A stretch of DNA of 64,000 nucleotides, from positions 248,001 through 312,000 of the forward strand of contig NZ_CP126625.1 of assembly GCF_030219325.1 (NCBI RefSeq), in the 5' to 3' direction. Below, piece after piece: positions 20,096 to 36,149 of the stretch (positions within the stretch are counted from its first letter, which is position 1; each line of letters opens with the position of its first letter). The notes beneath the pieces are model-generated. The model did no database searches. It worked only from the letters and a program-made list of their open reading frames with translations, and had not been told where the DNA came from. The translations under genes were made by a program, and so were the position numbers. This DNA comes from Geothrix sp. GTDB taxonomy: Bacteria; Acidobacteriota; Holophagae; Holophagales; Holophagaceae.

Positions 20096-21517
20096 ATGCC
20101 CCTCCTCTCCGATCTGATCCAGCGCGCGGCCGACCGGCTCTTCATGCCCTGGGTGCTGCTCGTCCTCATGGGCGGCGGCCTCTACCTGACCCTGCGCCTG
20201 CGCGTGGTGCAGGTGCGGCGCTTCCGCGAGGCCCTGCGGGTCATGCTGACAGCGCGGCCCCGGGGCGCGGACGGCCCGCTGACGCCCTTCCAGGCCTTCA
20301 TGACGGCCCTGGGGGCCTCCATCGGCACCGGCAACATCGCGGGCGTAGCCACGGCCATCATCTCCGGTGGCCCCGGCGCGCTGTTCTGGATCTGGTGCTA
20401 CGGCTTCTTCGCCACGGCCATCAAGTTCTGCGAGGCGGTGCTGGGCCTGCGCTTCCGCGTGGCGCGCGGCGACCAGGTGCAGAGCGGGCCCATGTACTAC
20501 CTGCGTGACGGCCTGAAGTCCCCGGCCCTGGCCTGGCTCTACGCCGCCGCAGCCTGCCTGGGGGCCCTGACCACCACGCCCTTCTCCCAGCCCAACAGCA
20601 TCGGCGTGGCCCTGAGCCATGTGCTGCCCACCGGCGCGGTGGTGCTGCCCTGGCTGGGCGCCGTGTCGCGGACGTCGCTCTATGTGGGCCTGGCCGTGGG
20701 CGTGCTGACCTGGGCGGTCATCATCGGCGGCATCAAGGTCATCGGCCGCGCGGCGGAGAAGCTGGCGCCCCTCAAGGTGGGCCTCTACCTGGCCGGGGGC
20801 CTGATCGTGCTCGTGACGTACGCCGCGGCCCTTCCCTCGGTGCTGGCCCTGGTCTTCCGCGAGGCCTTCTCCCTGCATGCCGCCGGCGGCACGGCCGCGG
20901 GCCTGGGCGTGATGATGGCCATGCGCTACGGCGTGGCGCGGGGTGTGTACGCCAACGAGGCGGGCTACGGCACCGCGGCGGTGGCCTACGGCACCGCGCA
21001 GAGCGATCGGCCCGAACAGCAGGGCCTGCACGCGGTGATGGAGACCTTCATCGTGTCCTGCGTGACCTCCTCCATCAGCGCCCTGACCATCCTCGTGAGC
21101 GGCGTGGCGCAGCAGTCCATCGCGGTGATCCGCGCCGGGGGCGAGGGCCTCACCAGCACGGCGGCGGTGGCCGGCGCCTTCAACACGGCGATGCCCACGG
21201 TGGGTGGCTGGATCGTGGCCTTCTGCGCCTTCCTCTTCGGCTACACCACCCTCATCGGCTGGGCCTTCTACGGCGAGCAGGCCCTCGAGTACCTGGTCGG
21301 CCCCCGGGCCACGAGGGTGTACCGCTGGATCTACTGCCTGCTCATCCCCTTCGGCGCCATCGCCAAGCCCACCGCCGTGTGGGCCTGGGGTGACATGATG
21401 AACGCGCTGCAGGTGTTCCCCAACATGATCGGCCTCCTCGGCCTGGCCGGCCTCGCGGCGAAGTACGCGACGCGGCGGGGTGGCGCCGAGTCCAGCGCCG
21501 GATTGGAGGCGCCGTGA
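20096..21517 (+). CDS. AGCS-family sodium:alanine/glycine symporter
   Basis: 473 residues and about eleven membrane helices, typical of the AGCS family. The signature GASIGTGNIAGVATAI (about residues 79-94) forms the Na+ and substrate site, and NEAGYGTAAVAYG is the second conserved block (about 287-299). It imports small amino acids such as alanine or glycine with Na+. The ATG at 20096 follows TAGGATCTGTCC. The stop overlaps the GTG start of the Kir channel by 4 bp, so the two are coupled. Confidence 0.92.
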   Translation: MPLLSDLIQRAADRLFMPWVLLVLMGGGLYLTLRLRVVQVRRFREALRVMLTARPRGADGPLTPFQAFMTALGASIGTGNIAGVATAIISGGPGALFWIWCYGFFATAIKFCEAVLGLRFRVARGDQVQSGPMYYLRDGLKSPALAWLYAAAACLGALTTTPFSQPNSIGVALSHVLPTGAVVLPWLGAVSRTSLYVGLAVGVLTWAVIIGGIKVIGRAAEKLAPLKVGLYLAGGLIVLVTYAAALPSVLALVFREAFSLHAAGGTAAGLGVMMAMRYGVARGVYANEAGYGTAAVAYGTAQSDRPEQQGLHAVMETFIVSCVTSSISALTILVSGVAQQSIAVIRAGGEGLTSTAAVAGAFNTAMPTVGGWIVAFCAFLFGYTTLIGWAFYGEQALEYLVGPRATRVYRWIYCLLIPFGAIAKPTAVWAWGDMMNALQVFPNMIGLLGLAGLAAKYATRRGGAESSAGLEAP

Positions 21518-22446
21518 CGCCACTCCCCCGCTTCAACCGCAGCCTCCCCAACGACGACCTGGGCCTGGGCGTCCGCGTGGGCCCGGGGCGCAGCGTCAAC
21601 AAGGACGGCACCTTCAACGTGCGCCGCGCGGGCCTGCCCTTCTTCCGGGGCTACGAGCTGTACCACCGGCTCATCACCATGGGCGGCTTCCGCTTCCTGG
21701 CCCTGCTCTTCCTGGGGTTCCTCGTGGCCAATGCCCTGTTCGCGGCCGTCTACCTGGGCATCGGCATGGACCAGTTCATCCGGACCGGTGGCCACAGCCG
21801 CCTGGACCGGCTCATGGACGCCTTCTTCTTCAGCGCCCAGACCCTCACCACCGTGGGGTACGGGCACATCAGCCCCAACAGCCACCTGGTGAGCGCCGTG
21901 GCGGCCTTCGAATCCCTGCTGGGGCTCCTGAGCTTCGCCCTGGCCACGGGCCTGCTCTACGGCCGCTTCTCGCGGCCCCATGCCCAGATGCGGTTCAGCC
22001 AGCGGGCCGTGGTGGCGCCCTATCGAGGCGGCACTGCCTTCATGTTCCGGTTCGTGAACCGGCGCAGCAACCAGCTCATCGAGGTGGAGGCCACCGTGGT
22101 GCTCTCCTGCAACGATCCGGAGACCGGCACCCGCCGCTTCGTCACCCTCTCGCTGGAGCGCAGCAAGATCAACCTCTTCCCCACCAGCTGGACCGTGGTG
22201 CATCCCATCGACGAGTCCAGCCCCCTCTCCGGCCTGACGACCGAGGATCTGGAGCGGGCCCAGGCCGAGTTCATCGTCCTCATCAAGGCCTTCGACGACA
22301 CCTTCGCCCAGACCATCTACCAGCGCACTTCGTACATCGCCGGGGAGATCCTCTGGGGCGCGCGCTTCCAGCCCATGGCCACCCTCGCGGTGGATGGCGT
22401 GATGGAGATGGATGTGGAGAAGGTCGATGCGACGGAGGTCGTCTAG
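21514..22446 (+). CDS. KirBac-type inward-rectifier potassium channel
   Basis: 310 residues. A slide-helix region (about 40-55) precedes two membrane helices (about 58-82 and 125-150) that flank the pore helix and selectivity filter TTVGYG (113-117). The immunoglobulin-like cytoplasmic domain follows, starting RPHAQMRFSQRAVVAPY, as in KirBac. It forms a tetrameric K+ channel. The start is GTG at 21514, overlapping the AGCS stop. It is convergent with kdpE and marks the edge of the potassium island. Confidence 0.93.
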   Translation: MTPLPRFNRSLPNDDLGLGVRVGPGRSVNKDGTFNVRRAGLPFFRGYELYHRLITMGGFRFLALLFLGFLVANALFAAVYLGIGMDQFIRTGGHSRLDRLMDAFFFSAQTLTTVGYGHISPNSHLVSAVAAFESLLGLLSFALATGLLYGRFSRPHAQMRFSQRAVVAPYRGGTAFMFRFVNRRSNQLIEVEATVVLSCNDPETGTRRFVTLSLERSKINLFPTSWTVVHPIDESSPLSGLTTEDLERAQAEFIVLIKAFDDTFAQTIYQRTSYIAGEILWGARFQPMATLAVDGVMEMDVEKVDATEVV

Positions 22447-22464: not shown

Positions 22465-23156
<692 letters not shown>

Positions 23157-23160
<4 letters not shown>

Positions 23161-25841
23161 GGGGCCTCCTCCGGCATTGCGGGCGGCGTCCCCAGGGGCA
23201 GAGTCACCAGGAACTGGGCGCCGCCCTGGGGGTGGTTCACGGCCTGGATGCGGCCCTGGTGGGCCGTCACGATGCCCTTGCAGATGGCGAGGCCCAGCCC
23301 GGCCCCGGGCCGGTTCGAGGCGGCCTGGCCCCGGGCCAGCTTCTCGAAGATCCGCTCCTCCTCCCCGGCGGGGATGCCCGGCCCCTGGTCGGCGATGGAG
23401 AGCGTGAGCGACTTTCCGGCGGCCCAGGCCTTGATGTCCACGGGGGATTCCGGCGGCGAGTATTTCAGGGCGTTGTCGAGGAGGTTCAGCAGCAGCTGCT
23501 CCATGAGCACACCATCCATGGCCACCAGGGGCAGGTCCTCGGGCAGGGCGACGCGCACGCGATGGGCTTCCAGGGCCAGCTCCCGGCGGTTAAGGGCGGC
23601 GCCCACCACCTCCTCCACGGGCATCCACTCGGTCTGCAGGTCCAGGGAACCTGCCTCCAGGCGCGTGATGTCCAGCAGGTTGCTGACCAGACGGTGGAGG
23701 CGCTGGGCCTCCTCCTGGGCGGACTGGAGCAGCTCCCGCCGGGCGGGCTCGGGAAGATCCGGCGTCTCCAGGGCTGTGCTGACGGCGCCGGTGATGACGC
23801 CCAGCGGCGTGCGCAGGTCGTGGGAGACCGAGCTGAGCAGGGCGTTGCGGAGCCGCTCCTCGTCCGCCCGGCGCTTGTCCTGAGCGCCCTGCTCGGCCAG
23901 GAGGGCCCGCTCCAGGGCCAGGGCCGTCTGAGTGGCGAAGGCTTCGAGCAGCTGGCGCTGGTCCGGCTCGGCCCAGCGGGGCGCGCCCTCGGGGAGCAGG
24001 CCCAGGACGCCGAGGGCCCCGGCCGCCCCCTTCAGGGGCAGGTAGGTGGCGCGCGCGCCCGGCAGGGTGAGGGTGCCGAGGCCGGCGGGTTCCGCATGGT
24101 CGAAGACCCACTGGGCCACGCCCAGCTCCTGGTCGTTGAGGGGGAAGGCCAGGGGATGGGCGGGCGCCTGCAGACGGCCATGCTCATCGGGTCGCAGCAT
24201 CACGCCCTGGCTCTGGAACTGGGTGGCCACGTTCTGGAGGGCGGAGGCCACCAGGGCCGCGGAGCCCGAGCTGCGGGCCAGCTCCTGCCCCAGGCGGTAG
24301 AGGGCGTGGGTGCGCTGCTCTCGACCGCGCGCCAGGCGGGCCTGGGCGCGGATCCGCTCCGTGAGGTTGCCGATGACCACGCCCATCAGCAGCATCACGG
24401 CAAAGGTGCCCACGTGCCGGAAGTCAGTGACCGCGAAGGTGTAGTACGGGGGCACGAAGAGGAAGTCGAGGGCCGCGACGCTGAGCACGGAGGCCAGCAG
24501 GGAGGGGCCGCGGCCGAAGCGCGTGGCCACGATGAGGATGCCCAGGAGGTAGACCATGACGATGTCCGCCAGCTCGGTGCGGCGGAAGATGAGGCTGGCC
24601 AGGACACTGGCCAGCACCACGGTCAGGGCGCTCAGCAGGTAGTTGCGCAGGGGGCTCGTGATGGTGCGCCGGATGAGGGGCGTGGCCGGTTCGCGGCCCG
24701 GCTCGCCGCTGATGACGTAGACGTCGATGGTGCCGCTGTCGCGGATGAGATCGTCCACCGTGGAGCCCATCACCAGCTCCATCCAGCGGGGCCGGGAGGG
24801 TTTCCCCACCACGATCTTGGTGATGTTGCGGTCCCGGGCGAAGGTGAGGATGTCCTCCACCAGGGCGCCGGCCCCTTCGATGACCGCCGTCTCGCCGCCC
24901 AGTTTCTCGGCCAGGCGCAGGTTGGCCTCCAGGCGGGTGCGGTCCTCGTCCGTGAAGCGGAGGTGCTGGCGGGACTCCACGTAGAGGGCCAGCCAGGGCG
25001 CTCCGAGCGCGCCCGCCATGCGGCGGGTGCCGCGGATGAGGCGCTCGGACAGCTCCCCCGGGCCCACGCACACGAGCAGGCGGTCGCCGGCCGCCCAGGT
25101 CTTGCGGATGCCCTCGGAGGCCATGTAGCGGCGCATCTGCGCGTCCACGCTCTCGGCCGTGTGCCGCAGGGCCAGCTCACGCAGGGCCAGCAGGTTGCCC
25201 TTGCGGAAGAAGTGATCCTGGGCGTGGCGGGCCTGGTCCGGCAGGTAGACCTTCCCCTCCTTCAGGCGGAGCAGCAGGTCGTCCGGCGGCAGATCCACCA
25301 GCTCCACCTCGTCGGCGCGCTCCAGCACGGTGTCGGGCACGTTCTCCCGGACGATCACGCCCGTGATCTGGGCCACCACGTCCTTGAGGCTTTCCAGGTG
25401 CTGCACGTTCAGGGTGGTGTAGACGTCGATGCCCGCGTCCAGCAGCTCCATCACGTCCTGCCAGCGCTTGGCGTGCCGGGACCCCATCACGTTCGAGTGG
25501 GCCAGCTCGTCCATGAGGATCAGCTCGGGCCGCCGCTGCAGGGCCGCGTCCAGGTCGAACTCCGGCAGGAACTGGCCCGCGTAGGCCAGCTCCCTGCGGG
25601 GCAGCACCTCAAGCCCCTCGAGCAGGGCCGCGGTCTCGCTGCGGCCGTGGGTCTCCACCACGCCCACGACCACGCCCACGCCCTCCTTCCGGCGCTCCTG
25701 CGCCTCCGAGAGCATGGCGAAGGTCTTGCCGACGCCGGGCGCCGCACCGAAGAAGACCTTCAGCTTGGCGCGCGTCTCGCGGGACTCCTGCTCCTGCACC
25801 TGGCGCAGGAGGGCATCGGGGTCCGGGCGTTCGAGCGGCAT
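23157..25841 (-). CDS. kdpD: KdpD sensor histidine kinase
   Basis: 894 residues, full length. The N-terminal KdpD domain has Walker A GAAPGVGKT (32-40) and a Walker-B-like ILMDELAHSN. A universal-stress-protein-like domain (about 250-370) follows, then four membrane helices (about 395-490), a GAF-like domain, HisKA with phospho-His near 673 (SSVSHDLRTPLG) and HATPase (DQGPGIP, GAGLGLAI). It senses K+ limitation or osmotic state and phosphorylates KdpE. It lies about 4 kb from kdpFABC, with the porin and remnants between; the usual order is kdpFABCDE. Confidence 0.96.
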
Positions 25842-26744: not shown

Positions 26745-26773
26745 TCGGCGAGCGGGTGTTAAAGCGGCGTTGG
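26745..26773 (-). promoter_or_regulatory. Putative KdpE-type site for the 25923-26645 gene
   Basis: Read on the minus strand: repeat CCAACGCCGCT (26773-26763) directly followed by repeat TTAACACCCGC (26762-26752), 11 bp each. A weak -10-like GACACT follows one base from the position seen at the other promoters. The downstream TGRCCATSCT block is not conserved here, so this site is less certain than the others. Confidence 0.45.
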
Positions 26774-26839
26774 GATGCCGGCTGCGCGCATTAAGAATTC
26801 GCAATGATCCGCAATGGTCCGCATGGTTCCACTGCTTTC

Positions 26840-26894
26840 TTAACGCCGCCCCACCCTCTATTAGCGCCGCCCTAACGCCCGACGTGGCCATCCT
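26840..26894 (+). promoter_or_regulatory. Putative KdpE-dependent promoter of the porin gene
   Basis: Repeats TTAGCGCCGCC (26861-26871) and CTAACGCCCGA (26872-26882) abut. An extra copy, TTAACGCCGCC, lies at 26840-26850, 21 bp upstream in phase. The block TGGCCATCCT (26885-26894) starts exactly 13 bp after the last repeat begins and contains CATCCT as a plausible -10. This spacing matches the kimA and kdp promoters. Start of transcription near 26901 would leave a leader of about 32 nt. Confidence 0.6.
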
Positions 26895-26932: not shown

Positions 26933-28306
26933 ATGAAATCTTCTCTTCTGCTACTCATGGTGGCCGGCATTCCGGCCATGGCGCAGGCCTCCGCCGAACT
27001 CACCGCGGTGCAGGTTCCCGCGGCGCCACCCGCCGCGGTGGTCAAGGTCGCCGAGCCCTTCACTTTCGCCGATTTCACCTGGCTGAACGGCAACCCCCGC
27101 ACCAAGGATGCCCCGCTGGATTCCAAGGTCTTCACGGGTGAGTTTCGGGCCGACGTGAACATGGTCTACGACTTCAACCATCCCAAGGACCACACCATCG
27201 TGGGTTCCTGCGAGACGGGCCGGACCAATGAGATCCAGGTGCAGCAGCTGGGTCTCGGCGGCGATTTCCATTGGGAGAACGTCCGCGGCCGTGTCATGAC
27301 CCAGTTCGGGATGTACTCGACCATGACCCCCCGGAATGATGCGAGCCCCTCCCGGGGCCAGTGGGAGTCGGACAAGGCCTACCGCTATGTGTCCGAGGCC
27401 TACGGCGGCTACCACTGGGACGTGCTGAACGGCATCAACCTCGACGCCGGCATCTTCATGTCCTACATCGGCCTGTTCAGCTACTACAACTTCGACAACT
27501 GGGCCTACCAGCCCTCTTACGTATCCGCCAACACTCCCTGGTTCTTCAACGGCCTGCGTCTCCAGGTGTTCCCCTCGGACAAGCTGAAGCTGGAGTTCTG
27601 GCTCACCAACGGATGGCAGTCCTACAACACCTTCAACAACACCCCCGGCATCGGTGCCTGCCTCAACTGGCGGCCCACCGGCGACCTCAACATCATCTCC
27701 AACAACTACGTCCTGGGCGCCGACACGCTGGGCAACCAGAAACGCACCCGCCGCCACACGGACAACAGCATCCAGTGGAAGTACTACGACAAGCCGGAGA
27801 GCTTCATCTCCAGGATGGCGACCAGCTTCACCTTCGACCTGGGCGATGAGCAGGGCGGGGGCGTGAGCCGCTCCGGCAACGCCGCCGAGCCCAAGCAGTA
27901 CTTCGCGGGGTGGATGCTCTACAACCGCTTCTGGTTCAAGGGCGACCGCCACGCCATCACCATTGGCGGCGGGGCCATCACGAACCCCGGCCGCTACCTC
28001 GTCCTCGTGCCCCCCGTCAACGGGGCCACCGCGACCTCGGGCACTCCCTACTTCACTGCGAACCCCGGCGATCCCTTCCACGCCTGGGACTACACGGTGA
28101 CCTACGACTACATGCCCAGCCAGTTCATCACCTTCCGCGGCGAATTCAACCGCCGGGGCGCCAGTGTCCCCTACTTCTCGGGCGAGAACGGCATCACCCC
28201 TCCCGGCGGCAACCAGGGGCCCCTGGGGTCGGCGGTGGCCGGGTGGGCCCCCGACCTCCGCAAGACCGAGAGCCGCATCAACCTGGCCCTGCTCGTGAAG
28301 CTCTAG
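26933..28306 (+). CDS. Outer-membrane beta-barrel porin in the potassium island
   Basis: 457 residues. A signal peptide (about 1-20) and a short Pro/Ala linker are followed by a large beta-barrel with repeated aromatic-girdle strands and a final strand ending NLALLVKL. Segments such as YHWDVLNGINLDAGIFMSYIG resemble the BBP2 (beta-barrel porin 2) family. ATG 26933 is preferred over GTG 26930 because GGAG lies at ideal spacing. The shared operator-like promoter and the position beside kdp suggest it admits K+ under limitation; that substrate is inference. Confidence 0.8.
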   Translation: MKSSLLLLMVAGIPAMAQASAELTAVQVPAAPPAAVVKVAEPFTFADFTWLNGNPRTKDAPLDSKVFTGEFRADVNMVYDFNHPKDHTIVGSCETGRTNEIQVQQLGLGGDFHWENVRGRVMTQFGMYSTMTPRNDASPSRGQWESDKAYRYVSEAYGGYHWDVLNGINLDAGIFMSYIGLFSYYNFDNWAYQPSYVSANTPWFFNGLRLQVFPSDKLKLEFWLTNGWQSYNTFNNTPGIGACLNWRPTGDLNIISNNYVLGADTLGNQKRTRRHTDNSIQWKYYDKPESFISRMATSFTFDLGDEQGGGVSRSGNAAEPKQYFAGWMLYNRFWFKGDRHAITIGGGAITNPGRYLVLVPPVNGATATSGTPYFTANPGDPFHAWDYTVTYDYMPSQFITFRGEFNRRGASVPYFSGENGITPPGGNQGPLGSAVAGWAPDLRKTESRINLALLVKL

Positions 28307-28717: not shown

Positions 28718-29062
28718 GTGAGGGACGCTCCACCTCGGATCCTGATCGTGGAAGACGAACCTCACCTCCGGTCCTTCCTGCGGGAGGCCCTGAAGGCCCA
28801 CGGCTTCTGCTGCGTGGAGGCGGCCACGGGAAGGGAGGGGCTGGACCTGGCGGTGCGGCATCGTCCCGACATCACCCTGCTGGACCTGGGGCTGCCGGAT
28901 ATCGATGGTCTGGACCTCCTCTCGCGCCTGCGCGAATGGAGTCGCATGCCCGTCATCGTCATCTCCGCCCGTCGCCGGGAGATCGACCGCGTGGCGGCCC
29001 TGGATGTCGGCGCCGATGACTATCTTGCGAAGCCCTACCCTCTCCGGGAGCTGCTCGCCCGC
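28718..29062 (+). pseudogene. Truncated second kdpE (receiver domain only)
   Basis: It starts at GTG 28718 after CCGGAGG. The receiver resembles kdpE in this window over its whole length: RILIVEDEPHLRSFLREAL, LLDLGLPDIDGLDLLSRLREWSR, PVIVISARRREIDRVAALDVGADDYLAKPYPLRELLAR. The acceptor Asp and the conserved Lys are kept. Similarity stops abruptly at LRELLAR (29062), and the DNA-binding half is absent. The frame stays open to 29416, but the rest is antisense to kdpC and the kdpA-like fragment. A receiver-only protein cannot be excluded. It looks like the product of a rearrangement in a duplicated kdp locus. Confidence 0.75.
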
Positions 29063-29234: not shown

Positions 29235-29828
29235 CTACTTCGACGACAATGCTTCGAGGGCGAGGTTCAGCTTCAGCACGTTCACGCGGGCATCGCCGAG
29301 CACGCCCCATTGGGGGCCTTGGGTGTGGGCGGCCACCAGGTCGCGGACCTTGGCCTCGTCCAGGCCCCGGGCCTTGGCCACGCGATGCACCTGGTAGGCG
29401 GCAGCGGCGGGGCTGATGTGGGGATCCAGGCCGCTGGCGGACGTGGTGACGAGGTCCACGGGCACGGGGCCGGTGGTGTCAGGATCCGCCGCGCGCAGGG
29501 CGGCGATGCGCTCCTCCACGGCCTTCTTCAGGTCCGGGTTGCTGGGAGCCAGGTTGGATCCGCCGCTGTTGGCGCCGTTGTAGGGCAGGGGCTTGCCGTT
29601 GGCGTCCACGGTGGCGGAGGGGCGGCTCCAGAAATCCTTGGGGGCCGTGAAGGACTGTCCGATGAGCTCGGAGCCGATCACCTTGCCATCCGCCTTGATA
29701 AGGCTGCCCGCCGCCTGCTTGCGGAAGATGGCCTTGGAGAGCCCCGTGATGACCAGGGGATAGGCGAGGCCCGTGATGACGCTGAGGGCGATGAAGGAGA
29801 CGAGGGCGGGGCGGAGTTGCAGGTTCAT
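29235..29828 (-). CDS. kdpC: Potassium-transporting ATPase subunit KdpC
   Basis: 197 residues. One N-terminal membrane helix (about 8-30, [22 protein letters not shown]) precedes the periplasmic domain, with the family motifs [29 protein letters not shown] and [10 protein letters not shown]. KdpC stabilises the KdpFABC complex and assists K+ delivery. It starts 9 bp after the kdpB stop, as the last intact gene of the operon. Confidence 0.97.
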
Positions 29829-29837
29829 GGCGTGTCC

Positions 29838-31961
29838 TTACGCGGCGAAGTGAAGGGCGACCAGCAGCCAGTCGATGAGCTTGATGCCGATGAAGGGCAC
29901 CACCAGGCCGCCCGCGCCGTAGATGAGCAGGTTCCGCTGCAGCAGCTGGGCGGCGCCCACGGGACGGTATTTCACGCCGCGCAGGGCCAGGGGGATGAGC
30001 ACCACGATGATCAGTGCGTTGAAGATCACCGCCGACAGGATGGCGCTCTCGGGGCTGTGCAGGCCCATGATGTTGAGCGCTCCCAGAGCCGGATAGGTGG
30101 CCACGAAGGCCGCCGGCAGGATGGCGAAGTACTTGGCCACGTCGTTGGCGATGCTGAAGGTGGTGAGGGAGCCGCGGGTCATGAGCATCTGCTTGCCGAT
30201 CTCCACGATCTCGATGAGCTTGGTGGGATTGGAGTCCAGGTCCACCATGTTCCCGGCCTCCTTGGCGGCCTGGGTGCCGCTGTTCATGGCCACGGCCACG
30301 TCGGCCTGGGCCAGGGCGGGCGCATCGTTGGTGCCGTCACCGGTCATGGCCACGAGGCGGCCCCCGGCCTGGTATTCGCGGATGAGTTTCAGCTTGGCTT
30401 CGGGTGTGGCCTGGGCCAGGAAGTCGTCCACGCCCGCTTCCGCGGCGATGGCGGCGGCGGTGAGGGGATTGTCACCGGTGATCATCACGGTCTTGATGCC
30501 CATGCCGCGCAGCTCGGTGAAGCGCTCCTTGATGCCACCCTTCACGATGTCCTTGAGCTGGATGACGCCCAGGGCGTGAGGCCCTTCGGCGACCACCAGA
30601 GGTGTGCCTCCCGCCATGGAGATCTGATCCACCGTGCGGCGCAGGTCATCGGGGAACTTCCCGCCCTGGGCCTGGACGTAGTCCTCGATGGCGGACGCCG
30701 CACCCTTGCGGATCTGGCGGTCGCCGAGGTTCACGCCGCTCATGCGGGTCTGGGCGGTAAAGGGGACGAAGTGGGCGTCCAGGGCCTGGAGATCCCGCTC
30801 GCGGAGGCCGTACTGCTCCTTGGCCAGCACCACGATGCTGCGGCCCTCGGGTGTTTCATCCGAGAGCGAGGAGAGCTGCGCGGCATCGGCCAGGGCCCTG
30901 ATGTCCACGCCCTCGGCGGGAACGAAGGCCACAGCCTGGCGGTTGCCCAGGGTGATGGTGCCGGTCTTGTCCAGCAGCAGCACGTCCACGTCGCCGGCGG
31001 CTTCCACGGCACGGCCCGAGGTGGCGATGACGTTGGCCTGGATCATGCGATCCATGCCGGCGATGCCGATGGCCGACAGCAGGCCGCCGATGGTGGTGGG
31101 GATGAGGCAGACCAGCAGGGAGACCAGCACCGTGAGGGTCACGGGGCTGCCCTGGCCTGCGGCCTTCACGCTGAAGATGGAAAAGGGCAGCAGCGTGGCC
31201 ACGGCCAGCAGGAAGATGATGGTGAGGCCCGCCAGGAGGATGTCCAGGGCGATCTCGTTGGGCGTCTTCTGGCGCTTGGCGCCCTCCACCATGGCGATCA
31301 TGCGGTCCAGGAAGCTTTCGCCGGGGTTGGCCGAGATGCGGATGACCAGCCAGTCCGAGAGCACCAGGGTGCCGCCGGTGACGGCGGAGCGGTCGCCGCC
31401 GCTTTCCCGGATGACGGGGGCGCTCTCGCCGGTGATGGCGCTTTCGTTCACGGAAGCCACGCCTTCGACCACCTCGCCGTCACCGGGGATGGTCTCGCCG
31501 GCTTCCACCAGCACGAGATCATTGATGCGCAGATCGGGCGCATCGATGGTGTCAAAGGCGCCCTGGCGGTCCGTCCCCTTGAGGCGCTTGGCCTTCACGT
31601 CGCGCTTGGATTTGCGCAGGGAATCGGCCTGGGCCTTGCCCCGGCCCTCGGCCATGGCTTCGGCGAAGTTGGCGAAGAGCAGGGTGAACCAGAGCCAGAG
31701 GGAGATGGCGAGGATGAAGCCGGGCCGCCCACCGCCACGCCCCGAAAGGGCCTGCACCCAGAGCCCCGTGGTGAAGGCGCTGCAGATCCACACCGTGAAC
31801 ATCACCGGGTTCCGCAGCTGGTGCAGGGGATTCAGTTTTCGAAGGGAATCGATCACTGCGCGGCGCACGATGCTGGGTTCGAAGAGGGGGCGGGCTTGAC
31901 GAGAGCTCCCAACCCGCGTCTGCGCGAGGTGGGGAATGTCCTGCCGTGAATGGGAAACCAT
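29838..31961 (-). CDS. kdpB: Potassium-transporting P-type ATPase KdpB
   Basis: 707 residues. It is the catalytic subunit that hydrolyses ATP to drive K+ uptake. The phosphorylated Asp is D331 in [10 protein letters not shown], the actuator loop TGES is at 177-180, and the nucleotide and hinge motifs ([16 protein letters not shown]) are present. The ATG at 31961 is chosen because GGAG lies 6 nt upstream (31968-31971); an in-frame TTG at 31979 would overlap the ribosome site. It lies 14 nt after kdpA. Confidence 0.97.
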
Positions 31962-31975
31962 GGTCATCTCCAGAA

Positions 31976-33673
31976 TCAACGAAGGGCCAGCTGTTCAGCG
32001 ATGGGCCCCAGGGCCAGGGCGGGCAGGTAGGTGAGCGCGCCCACCAGCAGGACCACGCCCACCAGCACCGCCACGAAGAGGGGCGTGTGCGTGGGCAGGG
32101 TGCCCAGGCCCTCCGGCGTGTATTTCTTGCGACCCAGGGAACCGGCGATGGCGAGCACGGGGAAGATGACGCCGAAGCGGCCCACCACCATGGCGACGGC
32201 GAGCCCGTAGTTGTAGAAGGGGATGTTGCCGTTGAGGCCGCCGAAGGCGCTGCCATTGTTCTGGGCGCAGCTGCTGAAGGCGTAGAGAACCTGCGTGAAG
32301 CCGTGGGGCCCGGGGTTGGAGATGGAGGCCGTGGCCGCCGTCGAGAGCACGGCCGTAGCCGTGCCGATGAGGATGGCGGCGGAAGGCAGGAGGATGGCGA
32401 TGGAGGCCATCTTCATCTCGAAGGCCTCGATCTTCTTCCCCAGGTACTCCGGCGTGCGGCCCACCATGAGGCCACCGATGAAGACGCCCACCAGGGCGAA
32501 GAGCAGCATGCCGTAGAGGCCCGAGCCGACGCCGCCGAAGACCACTTCGCCCAGCTGGATCAACCAGAGGGGGACCAGGCCGCCCAGTGGGGTGAAGGAG
32601 TCGTGCATGCCATTGACGGCGCCGCAGGAGGCGGACGTGGTGATGGTGGCGAAGAGGCTGGTGGCCCCGGTGCCGAAGCGGACCTCCTTGCCCTCCATGT
32701 TGCCGCCGCCCTGCTGGAGGGTGGCGACCTGGTCCACGGGGAGGGGCTTGAGTCCAGGGTTGCCCTTGGCCTCGGCCCAGGTGGTGACCGAGAGCGCCAT
32801 CACGAAGATGACGGTCATGGCGGCCAACACGGCCCAGCCCTGGCGGCGGTCCTTCACCATCTTGCCGAAGGTGAGGCAGAGGGCCGCGGGAATGGCGAAG
32901 ATGGCCAGCATGTGGATGAGGTTGCTGAGGGCGTTCGGGCTTTCGAAGGGGTGGGCGGAGTTGGCGTTGAAGAAGCCGCCGCCGTTGGTGCCCAGCATCT
33001 TGATGGCCACCTGGGAGGCCACGGGGCCCATGGCGATGACCTGCCCCGAGGCGGTGTGCACATAGGCGGAGAGGTTCTGGATGGCGCCCTGGGAGACCAG
33101 CAGGAGGGCGATGACGGCGCTGAGGGGCAGCAGCACGTAGAGGGTGCTGCGGGTCAGATCCGCCCATGCGTTGCCGATGCCGTTCGACGTGCGGCGCACC
33201 AGTCCCCGGATGAGGGCCACCAGCACGGCCATGGCCGTGGCGGCGGAGAGGAAGTTCTGCACCGTGAGGCCCAGCATCTGGGTGAGATAGCTCATGGTGC
33301 TTTCACCACCGTAGTTCTGCCAGTTGGTGTTGGTGACGAAACTGATGGCGGTGTTGAAGGACAGGTCCGTGGGCAGCTTGCCCATGGCTTCGGGGTTCAG
33401 GGGCAGGGCCCCCTGGGCTTTCTGCAGCACGAAGACCGCCACGAACCCCAGCAGGTTGAAAAGGGCGATGGCCCAGGCATAGGCCTTCCAGCCCATGTCC
33501 TCCCCGCCGGAGATGCCCATGAGCCGGTAGATGCCCCGCTCGAGGGGCCCGAGCACCGGATGGAGGAAGGTGCGCTCCCCTTCCATCACCTTGGCGATGA
33601 AGGGACCGAGCGGGACCGCGATCCCGATCAGGAGCACGAGGAAGAGGAGGTTCTGGATCCAGGCTGCGGTCAT
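31976..33673 (-). CDS. kdpA: Potassium-transporting ATPase subunit KdpA
   Basis: 565 residues, the K+-selecting channel-like subunit with ten membrane helices. The four filter-region signatures are visible: [43 protein letters not shown] and NNGSAFGGL. The start ATG at 33673 overlaps the kdpF stop by 4 bp (ATGA), indicating coupled translation. Confidence 0.97.
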
Positions 33674-33762
33674 TGGAACTTCTCCGGTTTCAGCAGCGCG
33701 AAGGTGAGGTAGCCCAGCAGGCCCAGGGCCAGCAGGGACGCGACGAGGAGGGTGGGGCTCAT
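33670..33762 (-). CDS. kdpF: KdpF small subunit
   Basis: 30 residues: [17 protein letters not shown] then [14 protein letters not shown] single membrane helix ends in the 'L..PE.F' tail typical of KdpF, which stabilises the KdpABC complex. Its stop overlaps the kdpA start and its start overlaps the stop of the upstream 64-residue membrane protein, so three genes are chained by 4-bp overlaps. It is easily missed because of its length. Confidence 0.92.
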
Positions 33763-33953
33763 GAGAGGCCTCCGGGATGGGTCGTGAACTGGGCCATCAG
33801 CCAGACGAAGAGGGGGAAGAACATCAGGACGAGCATCCACACCGCATTTTTCCGTCCGGCCCCGCTCTCGGCGCGCAGGTCCCTGGCGGTACGCAGGCCG
33901 AGCCAGGCGACCAGGGTGGCGAGGGGGAGGAACCAGGGCAGGACGAGATGCAC
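33759..33953 (-). CDS. 64-residue membrane protein coupled to kdpF
   Basis: Two membrane helices (about 4-18, [16 protein letters not shown], and 40-56, [18 protein letters not shown]) are joined by a basic loop containing [13 protein letters not shown]. The start is GTG 33953 with CAGGAG upstream; an upstream ATG at 34034 would fall before the predicted transcription start. The stop overlaps the kdpF start by 4 bp. I know no characterised Kdp component of this type. Its position as first gene of the predicted kdp transcript suggests an accessory or regulatory subunit, which is inference. Confidence 0.7.
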
Positions 33954-34034
33954 AGGGGCTCCTGTGGTGTATGCGGACTGGGGCGGCCAGCGGCGCCGGC
34001 TCGGCTTCGCCTTCCAGGGATCAGGCGACCCCAC

Positions 34035-34100
34035 AGCATGGTCATGGGGGGCGTTAAGGCGGCGTTAGGAGTCCGGGCCGAGCCGTTAGGTTCTCGTTGG
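34035..34100 (-). promoter_or_regulatory. Putative KdpE-dependent promoter of the kdp operon
   Basis: On the minus strand the proximal pair is CTAACGCCGCC (34068-34058) and TTAACGCCCCC (34057-34047). A distal pair, CCAACGAGAAC (34100-34090) and CTAACGGCTCG (34089-34079), is phased 21 bp upstream. TGACCATGCT (34044-34035) begins 13 bp after the last repeat starts, with CATGCT as a plausible -10. Transcription starting near 34027 would give a leader of about 75 nt before the 64-residue gene. Confidence 0.62.
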
Positions 34101-34122
34101 GCCGGGGCCCAGGCCTGATTTC

Positions 34123-34156
34123 CTAACGTTTTCTTAACACCCTTCCTGGCCATCCT
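34123..34156 (+). promoter_or_regulatory. Putative KdpE-dependent promoter of kimA
   Basis: Repeats CTAACGTTTTC (34123-34133) and TTAACACCCTT (34134-34144) abut, followed by TGGCCATCCT (34147-34156), again 13 bp from the start of the second repeat. The TGGCCATCCT block is identical to that at the porin promoter. It is divergent from the kdp promoter in the same intergenic region (33954-34256), which otherwise holds no gene. Confidence 0.6.
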
Positions 34157-34256
34157 GAGGACCGGCTGGCCTTGGGGAGCGGGCGCGCCGGGTCGACCCT
34201 GTCGGCACGCTGTGCGCCCCGTCCAGATGACCTCACCAGACCAGGGAACCGCAGCC

Positions 34257-36149
34257 ATGCCCAACTACCGAGCGCTCCTCCTGGGGCGGCGGCTCACCAC
34301 CGAGGAGAGCCACGAGACCAGGATCAGCAATCCCATCGCCCTGGCGGTGTTCAGCTCGGACGCGCTGTCTTCCGTGGCCTACGGCACCCAGGAGATCATG
34401 GCCCCGCTCACGGCGGCCATCGCCATCTATGGCGCGGGGGTGCTCGGCTGGTCCTGGTGGGTGGCCCTCGGCATCGTGGGCCTGCTGCTCATCCTCAACG
34501 TGAGCTACCGGCAGACCATCCATGCCTACCCCAGCGGCGGCGGAGCCTACCTGGTGGCCAAGGACAACCTGGGGGAAGTGGCCGCGCAAACGGCCGGCGC
34601 ATCCCTCCTGATCGACTACATCCTGACCGTCGCCGTGTCCGTATCGGCCGGCGTGTCGGCCATCGTCTCGGCGTTCCCGGGCCTGGAGGCCCACCGGGTC
34701 TTCCTGGCCGAGGGCATCATCGCCTTCATCGCGCTGATGAACCTGCGGGGCGTGAAGGAGAGTGGCCTGGTCTTCTCCCTGCCCACCTACGGCTTCGTGA
34801 TCTGCATCGTGGGCCTGCTGCTCAAGGGCTTCTGGAATGTGGCCACCGGCCATGAGGTGGTCCTCGCCCCCCGCGCCGCAGCCCACCTGGAGGGCACCTC
34901 CAAGCTGGCGGCCCTGTGGCTCTTCGCCCGGGCCTACAGCGCCGGCTGTACGGCCCTCACGGGGGTGGAGGCCATCAGCAACGGCGTCACCGCCTTCAAG
35001 GACCCGGTGTCGCGCAATGCGGCGAAGACCATGACCTGGATGGTGGTGATCCTGGGCTCCATGTTCCTGGGCATCACCTACCTGACCAACCACTACGGCC
35101 TGACCTACCATCCGGACGCCCCGGAGACCCTGCTGTCCCAGCTGACCCGGGTGATCCTGGGCGGGGCGGAACACGGGTTCCCGAAGCTGGTCTACCTCAC
35201 CACCACCGGTTTCACCATGGCCATCCTGGCCCTGGCGGCCAACACCGCCTATGCGGACTTCCCCCGACTGGCCGCGCTCCACGCCCGGGACGGTTTCCTG
35301 CCCCGGCAGTTCACCAGCCAGGGAGACCGCCTGGTCTTCTCCAATGGGATCTTCATCCTGTCGCTGGCGGCGGGGGTCCTGGTCCTGCTCTTCGGCGCCA
35401 AGGAGGACCACCTGCTGCCGCTCTATGCCGTGGGCGTGTTCCTGGGCTTCACCATCAGCCAGACCGGCATGGTGGTGCGCTGGTTCAGGCTGAAGGGCAA
35501 GGCCTGGCGGCTGAAGGCGGTGATCAATGGTCTGGGCGCCGTGACCACGCTGGTCGTCATGCTGGTGATCGCCGTGACCCGGTTCGCCCACGGGGCCTGG
35601 ATCGTCATCGTCCTGGTGCCCGTGATGGTGACGACCTTCTTCAACATCCACCGGCACTACATCCGCGTGAAGTCCATCCTGGCGGCGAGCCGCGTGGACT
35701 TCATGGGGCCCCGCCGCAACCGCGTGGTGGTGCTGGTCTCCGGCATCCACGCCGGCGTGGTGCAGGCCCTGAACTACGCCAAGGTCATCGCCGAGCATGG
35801 CGAGGTGGAGGCGCTGACCGTCGACTTCCCCGATGAGCATGGCCGGGACAGCGCGGCGCTGGAGAAGCTGAGGTCAGACTGGCCCAGGTACTGTGAAGGG
35901 ATTCCGCTCCGGCCGATCCGGAGCCCCTACCGCAAGGTCGTCGAGCCCATCGTGGACGAACTCGAGCGAATGCGGCGGGTGGAGCCGGAGTACACCATCA
36001 CCGTGATCCTGCCCGAGTTCATCACGGGGCACTGGTGGTCGAACCTGCTGCACAACCAGACCGCCTGGCGCATCAAGGGCACCCTGCTCCTCATGCCCAA
36101 GATCATCGTGATCTCGATCCCCTACCACGTGGATCCCACGCTCGAGTAG
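34257..36149 (+). CDS. kimA: KimA-type potassium importer (APC-superfamily)
   Basis: 630 residues: twelve predicted membrane helices (about 25-450) and a cytoplasmic C-terminal domain. Blocks shared with B. subtilis KimA (YdaO) as I recall it include FSSDALSSVAYGT, SYRQTIHAYPSGGGAYLV, SLLIDYILTVAVSVSAG, CTALTGVEAISNGV, and near the end FITGHWWSNLLHNQTAW. KimA is a high-affinity K+/H+ symporter, and the location opposite kdpFABC with a matching promoter strongly supports K+ import. ATG 34257 is preferred; GTG 34212 is in frame but adds a non-conserved leader. An amino-acid permease is the alternative. Confidence 0.85.
   Translation: MPNYRALLLGRRLTTEESHETRISNPIALAVFSSDALSSVAYGTQEIMAPLTAAIAIYGAGVLGWSWWVALGIVGLLLILNVSYRQTIHAYPSGGGAYLVAKDNLGEVAAQTAGASLLIDYILTVAVSVSAGVSAIVSAFPGLEAHRVFLAEGIIAFIALMNLRGVKESGLVFSLPTYGFVICIVGLLLKGFWNVATGHEVVLAPRAAAHLEGTSKLAALWLFARAYSAGCTALTGVEAISNGVTAFKDPVSRNAAKTMTWMVVILGSMFLGITYLTNHYGLTYHPDAPETLLSQLTRVILGGAEHGFPKLVYLTTTGFTMAILALAANTAYADFPRLAALHARDGFLPRQFTSQGDRLVFSNGIFILSLAAGVLVLLFGAKEDHLLPLYAVGVFLGFTISQTGMVVRWFRLKGKAWRLKAVINGLGAVTTLVVMLVIAVTRFAHGAWIVIVLVPVMVTTFFNIHRHYIRVKSILAASRVDFMGPRRNRVVVLVSGIHAGVVQALNYAKVIAEHGEVEALTVDFPDEHGRDSAALEKLRSDWPRYCEGIPLRPIRSPYRKVVEPIVDELERMRRVEPEYTITVILPEFITGHWWSNLLHNQTAWRIKGTLLLMPKIIVISIPYHVDPTLE

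Follow-up and report, generated by a model that had tools for sequence, protein, structure and literature searches.

The window, the 64,000-nucleotide stretch of a Geothrix genome analysed here, carries a cluster of potassium genes in which kimA is divergent from the minus-strand kdp genes. The genes of this cluster are the following:

22465–23160, minus strand: kdpE response regulator, the proposed binder of the boxes described below (best match E. coli KdpE 4kny, E 3.9e-72)
23157–25841, minus strand: kdpD sensor kinase (PF02702, NF007793)
26933–28306, plus strand: BBP2/OmpL-like outer-membrane porin (PF07642)
29235–29828, minus strand: kdpC (NF001454)
29838–31979, minus strand: kdpB (TIGR01497)
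31976–33673, minus strand: kdpA (TIGR00680, PF03814)
33670–33762, minus strand: kdpF (read from the sequence)
33759–33959, minus strand: membrane-like small ORF of 66 aa that opens the kdp operon and starts with GTG (no Pfam family; also present in the relative G028, locus L105)
34257–36149, plus strand: kimA, KUP-type K+/H+ symporter of 630 aa (KimA of B. subtilis, PDB 6s3k, E 6.9e-133)

Two further reading frames were noted at this locus. The one at 28739–29059 (plus strand), between the porin gene and kdpC, encodes a KdpE-like receiver without a recognisable DNA-binding domain and looks like a decayed kdpE copy. The other, at 21514–22446 (plus strand), runs convergently towards kdpE and encodes a KirBac-like K+ channel; a homologue adjoins kdpE in G018 and G009.

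The promoter elements of the cluster were read as follows:

34123–34144, plus strand: kimA box pair of the KdpE type, two abutting 11-mers, CTAACGTTTTC (34123–34133) and TTAACACCCTT (34134–34144); read from the sequence, unique in the genome and conserved in 23 kimA promoters
34151–34156, plus strand: kimA −10-like hexamer CATCCT, within the block TGGCCATCCT (34147–34156) that follows the pair after CC; bases 18–23 counting from the first base of the second repeat, as for TATAGT in phoA
34047–34068, minus strand: kdp proximal box pair (boxes 3 and 4), CTAACGCCGCC (34068–34058) and TTAACGCCCCC (34057–34047); from the sequence, the genome scan and the relatives
34035–34040, minus strand: kdp −10-like hexamer CATGCT, within the block TGACCATGCT (34044–34035) that follows the proximal pair after CA; from sequence and comparison
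34079–34100, minus strand: kdp distal box pair (boxes 1 and 2), CCAACGAGAAC (34100–34090) and CTAACGGCTCG (34089–34079), 32 bp upstream of the proximal pair
26840–26882, plus strand: porin promoter boxes TTAACG (26840), TTAGCG (26861) and CTAACG (26872), with a weak fourth at 26829
26885–26894, plus strand: porin −10 block TGGCCATCCT, identical to the kimA block
26752–26773, minus strand: weaker divergent box pair CCAACG/TTAACA, upstream of a 240-aa ORF and kdpDE

The first-pass annotation had described the kdp and kimA promoters as sharing a rigid build of two abutting 11-bp repeats, two bases and TGRCCATSCT at equal offsets. This build is confirmed, and in both promoters a CATnCT hexamer resembling a −10 box begins 18 bp after the start of the second YTAACG repeat. 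Within this genome the offset is identical, but it is less than rigid between species, in which the hexamer begins at either base 17 or base 18 of that repeat. The second repeat pair that had been placed 21 bp upstream on the kdp side is also present: 21 bp separate box 2 from box 3 and 32 bp one pair from the other, so that the four boxes stand at 0, 11, 32 and 43, a complete phasing that the annotation had not spelled out, for this genome or for E. coli; the first box is degenerate (CCAACG). In a degenerate half-site scan of the window, one of the few strong pairs was found before the porin gene, where 26861–26894 reads TTAGCGCCGCC CTAACGCCCGA CG TGGCCATCCT. The weak divergent pair at 26752–26773 might, at low confidence, serve kdpDE autoregulation. 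A GG dinucleotide (34165–34166, plus strand) lies about 9 bp past the kimA −10 hexamer, near the expected start site; in the window and its relatives, GG after the hexamer is nearly invariant in kdp promoters and frequent in kimA promoters.

The complete pattern is rare. YTAACN6YTAACN8TGNCCAT has two matches in the 3.73-Mb genome, both at this locus, as against none for the reversed control and none in 100 Markov-simulated windows. The bare pair YTAACN6YTAAC gave three genome matches and its reversed control seven; the rarity therefore belongs to the pair plus the block. The third bare-pair match (1594667) was rejected, being a near-palindrome without a −10 block.

The first-pass annotation had staked its proposal on finding the repeats upstream of kdp and kimA in related genomes, and there they are conserved. 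Among 77 Holophagaceae genomes the strict pattern has 14 matches, every one before kimA, kdp or a porin–kdp unit (in G035, before the porin of that unit), and the reversed control has none. The pair stands 115–142 bp before the ATG of 23 kimA genes. In 19 non-redundant kimA promoters TAAC..TAAC is invariant and the hexamer conserved, and the columns further out are near background; position 6 of the half-site and the −10 vary among promoters. No pair was found in 12 sampled promoters of second-group kimA paralogues, and the boxes are absent from five main-group kim copies (G015, second copy of G009, G014, G022, G027). In the genus, most kdp promoters show the four-box phasing 0/11/32/43, followed by the hexamer at 59 or 60; in a few, the proximal pair alone is clear. 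A relaxed pattern with a gap of 11–12 matched only kdp promoters of the 17 type, five of five matches lying at kdp; this gap is one base short for promoters of the 18 type, and the result is read for specificity only. The pair precedes the porin gene in eight genomes counting our own, the seven others (G011, G014, G019, G020, G022, G035 and G049) being all those whose retrieved DNA shows the porin with its upstream region, and kdpFABC follows immediately after the porin gene in G011, G019, G020 and G035. As far as sequence comparison can tell, the same type of KdpE site would serve the Kdp pump, the KimA importer and the porin, an arrangement shared by over 20 species.

Which protein would bind these boxes? 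As the first-pass annotation had pointed out, kdpE is encoded nearby (22465–23160, minus strand, in the same cluster), and kdpDE adjoins kdp or kimA. In G009, G018, G021, G029, G030, G033 and G036, kimA is divergent from kdpD and not from kdpF. G039, G040 and G041 have no KdpA match and keep kdpDE divergent from kimA with the boxes between them; in G028 (L105), kdpFABC is reduced to fragments of KdpA (137–182) and KdpC (125–192) between kdpD and kimA, and kdpD remains and both promoters are intact despite this decay. kdpD is present in all 23 genomes with a boxed kimA versus 36 of 47 in the genus (P ~1e-4, a value inflated by linkage and incompleteness). At the protein level, DNA binding by E. 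coli KdpE needs R193, R200 and T215 (PMC3264566), and in the alignment the equivalents of these residues are conserved in KdpE here. Gene neighbourhood, the retention of kdpDE with a boxed kimA after the loss of kdpFABC and the conserved contact residues together make KdpE the likely binder and support the joint control of kdp and kimA by KdpE that had been proposed.

The boxes with their spacing, uniqueness, conservation and associated genes are observed; they are consistent with the following scenario, in which the binding of KdpE and activation by it, as well as the start sites and the K+ signal, are inferred. The two abutting 11-bp half-sites at kimA, in a class II position over the −35 region and beside a weak CATnCT −10, would hold a single KdpE dimer that recruits RNA polymerase in a way similar to PhoB at phoA. 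The kdp promoter would bind two KdpE dimers separated by three helical turns (32 bp), with the proximal dimer in the class II position, and the element that precedes the BBP2 porin gene would act in the same manner. Because kimA has the proximal half only and kdp a further, distal dimer, control is predicted to be stronger or more cooperative at kdp than at kimA. Since porin, kimA and kdp share the element, we propose that the repeats are KdpE half-sites through which KdpDE switches on pore, symporter and pump together when K+ is scarce, a reading to which we give a probability of about 0.86.

The identity of the regulator deserves some caution. The half-site is YTAACG in this genus, TTTAYR or TTGAC in other acidobacteria and of the type TTTAYA in E. 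coli. Given this difference from E. coli, another OmpR/PhoB-class regulator, for example a PhoB homologue, might formally bind the repeats, with KdpE binding elsewhere. Direct repeats of 11 bp are indeed common to many regulators of that class, the spacing is that of the PhoB box of phoA, and the half-sites are unlike those of E. coli KdpE (PMC3264566). We nevertheless regard this as unlikely: the strict matches are confined to potassium genes, kdpDE and no other system stays beside the boxed kimA once kdpFABC is lost, and the four-box phasing at kdp equals that around the footprinted E. coli KdpE site. A local duplication might also have made the kimA promoter a mere copy of the kdp promoter, devoid of any present regulatory role, as the two are similar and kimA usually adjoins kdp or kdpDE, so that linkage could carry sites along. 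This is very improbable, because the invariant half-sites and diverged flanks of the 19 non-redundant kimA promoters point to selection; moreover, the site persists without kdpFABC, and G046 keeps the pair although its kimA and kdp are on different contigs.

KimA orthologues are better known for control by c-di-AMP, a contrast drawn in the first-pass annotation that our searches bear out. The c-di-AMP pocket of B. subtilis KimA is lined by residues that have been described (PMC10284832), and most of them are conserved in the aligned KimA here (Arg337, His579, Asn580, Gln581, Tyr118 and Asn237), which would suit a KimA controlled mainly by c-di-AMP as in Firmicutes, the boxes being secondary. 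However, none of the 77 Holophagaceae genomes has a diadenylate cyclase domain detectable by a search that was positive in 11 of 14 control genomes. No c-di-AMP riboswitch was detected in our own genome, and an Rfam search of the window gave no match and thus no RNA element in the kdp–kimA intergenic region. We consider this the least probable of the alternatives; the pocket, conserved without a detectable cyclase, may be structural or may bind another nucleotide. A two-component system, which we take to be KdpDE, appears to have taken over the control of KimA in this lineage.

We then considered whether the kdp layout extends to other bacteria. In E. coli kdp, the half-sites TTTATA and TTTACA lie within a KdpE footprint from −72 to −50 (PMC3264566). 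With these known half-sites at 0 and 11, the E. coli sequence (NC_000913.3, L099) has a second pair of 11-bp period, TTTGCGAAATC TTTGCAGCCAG, at 32 and 43, and this pair is kept in Enterobacterales and Moraxella. For 13 proteobacterial kdp promoters, the pair score averaged at each offset is highest at 32 (10.0), with 43 the only other offset to rise above the rest (6.0); in 2000 shuffles the mean reached at most 4.3, whatever the offset. As these sequences are related, they do not count as independent events. The half-site score was untrained, its values having been chosen manually on the basis of known half-sites of E. coli and Geothrix, and the sample consists of plasmid-borne and misfiled chromosomal loci from Enterobacterales, Moraxella and Burkholderiales. 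Variants occur: the offset is 33 rather than 32 in Pluralibacter and a near-identical Raoultella plasmid copy, the boxes of the distal pair are spaced by 10 bp in Klebsiella, and in two Comamonadaceae mainly the fourth box is visible. Within the acidobacteria, a phasing of 0/11/32/43, or nearly so, with boxes TTGAC and TTTATG recurs in three genomes of another family, and four abutting 11-mers are seen in five genomes from additional groups. KdpE was not found in the examined stretches downstream of kdpA for most of the acidobacteria with TTTAYR. The four-box layout was rejected for alphaproteobacteria, where a lone element at 44 bp, perhaps a −35, accompanies the distal pair, and no clear pair was seen at kdp in Azospirillum, Acetobacter, Acidiphilium, Streptomyces and several acidobacteria. 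On two Enterobacterales plasmids (L188, L202), a gene for a TrkH-type K+ transporter is divergent from the plasmid-borne kdpFABC.

The promoter layout thus probably extends to E. coli, where a re-reading of the kdp promoter is suggested: a conserved second pair of half-sites directly upstream of the −10 would explain how the KdpE dimer at −72 to −50 joins RNA polymerase. We found no report of this pair in the openly readable literature; as the original footprint paper and subscription papers lie outside that scope, its novelty is provisional. We also lean, with more reserve, towards a broader proposal, namely that in Holophagaceae KdpDE regulates the whole envelope route of K+ import (porin, KimA and Kdp), having taken the place of control by c-di-AMP and being able to persist after the Kdp pump is lost, and that the two-dimer 0/11/32/43 kdp promoter is old and common to several lineages, E. 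coli having a proximal site for a KdpE dimer that has been overlooked. The regulation of KimA has so far been described mainly through c-di-AMP, and the natural losses of kdpFABC provide evidence for a takeover by KdpDE.

Several known systems resemble the proposed one in part. The E. coli kdpFABC promoter is controlled by its cognate KdpDE, as is proposed here, and also has its second pair 32 bp further downstream. KdpE of E. coli is catalogued as a regulator with one target (PMC8249747, PMC7657598), whereas here the half-site is YTAACG and the candidate targets in Geothrix relatives include kimA and the porin gene. The class II PhoB box of phoA also consists of two abutting 11-mers with a −10 hexamer from base 18 of the second repeat, and this identical spacing supports the OmpR/PhoB-class layout first suggested for our repeats, in which direct repeats replace the −35 and the hexamer begins at base 17 or 18; phoA differs in half-site sequence, signal and target genes. 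In Mycobacterium smegmatis, KdpE has a 22-bp site before kdpFABC as well, but this site is A-rich and of unrelated sequence, and a single target promoter is described (PMC5401905). Finally, c-di-AMP control in Firmicutes, by a riboswitch in Bacillus and by inhibition of KimA, likewise couples kimA and kdp as a K+ import set; in Holophagaceae, with neither a detectable cyclase (77 genomes) nor a riboswitch (own genome), a similar coupling would be achieved by DNA sites beside kdpDE.
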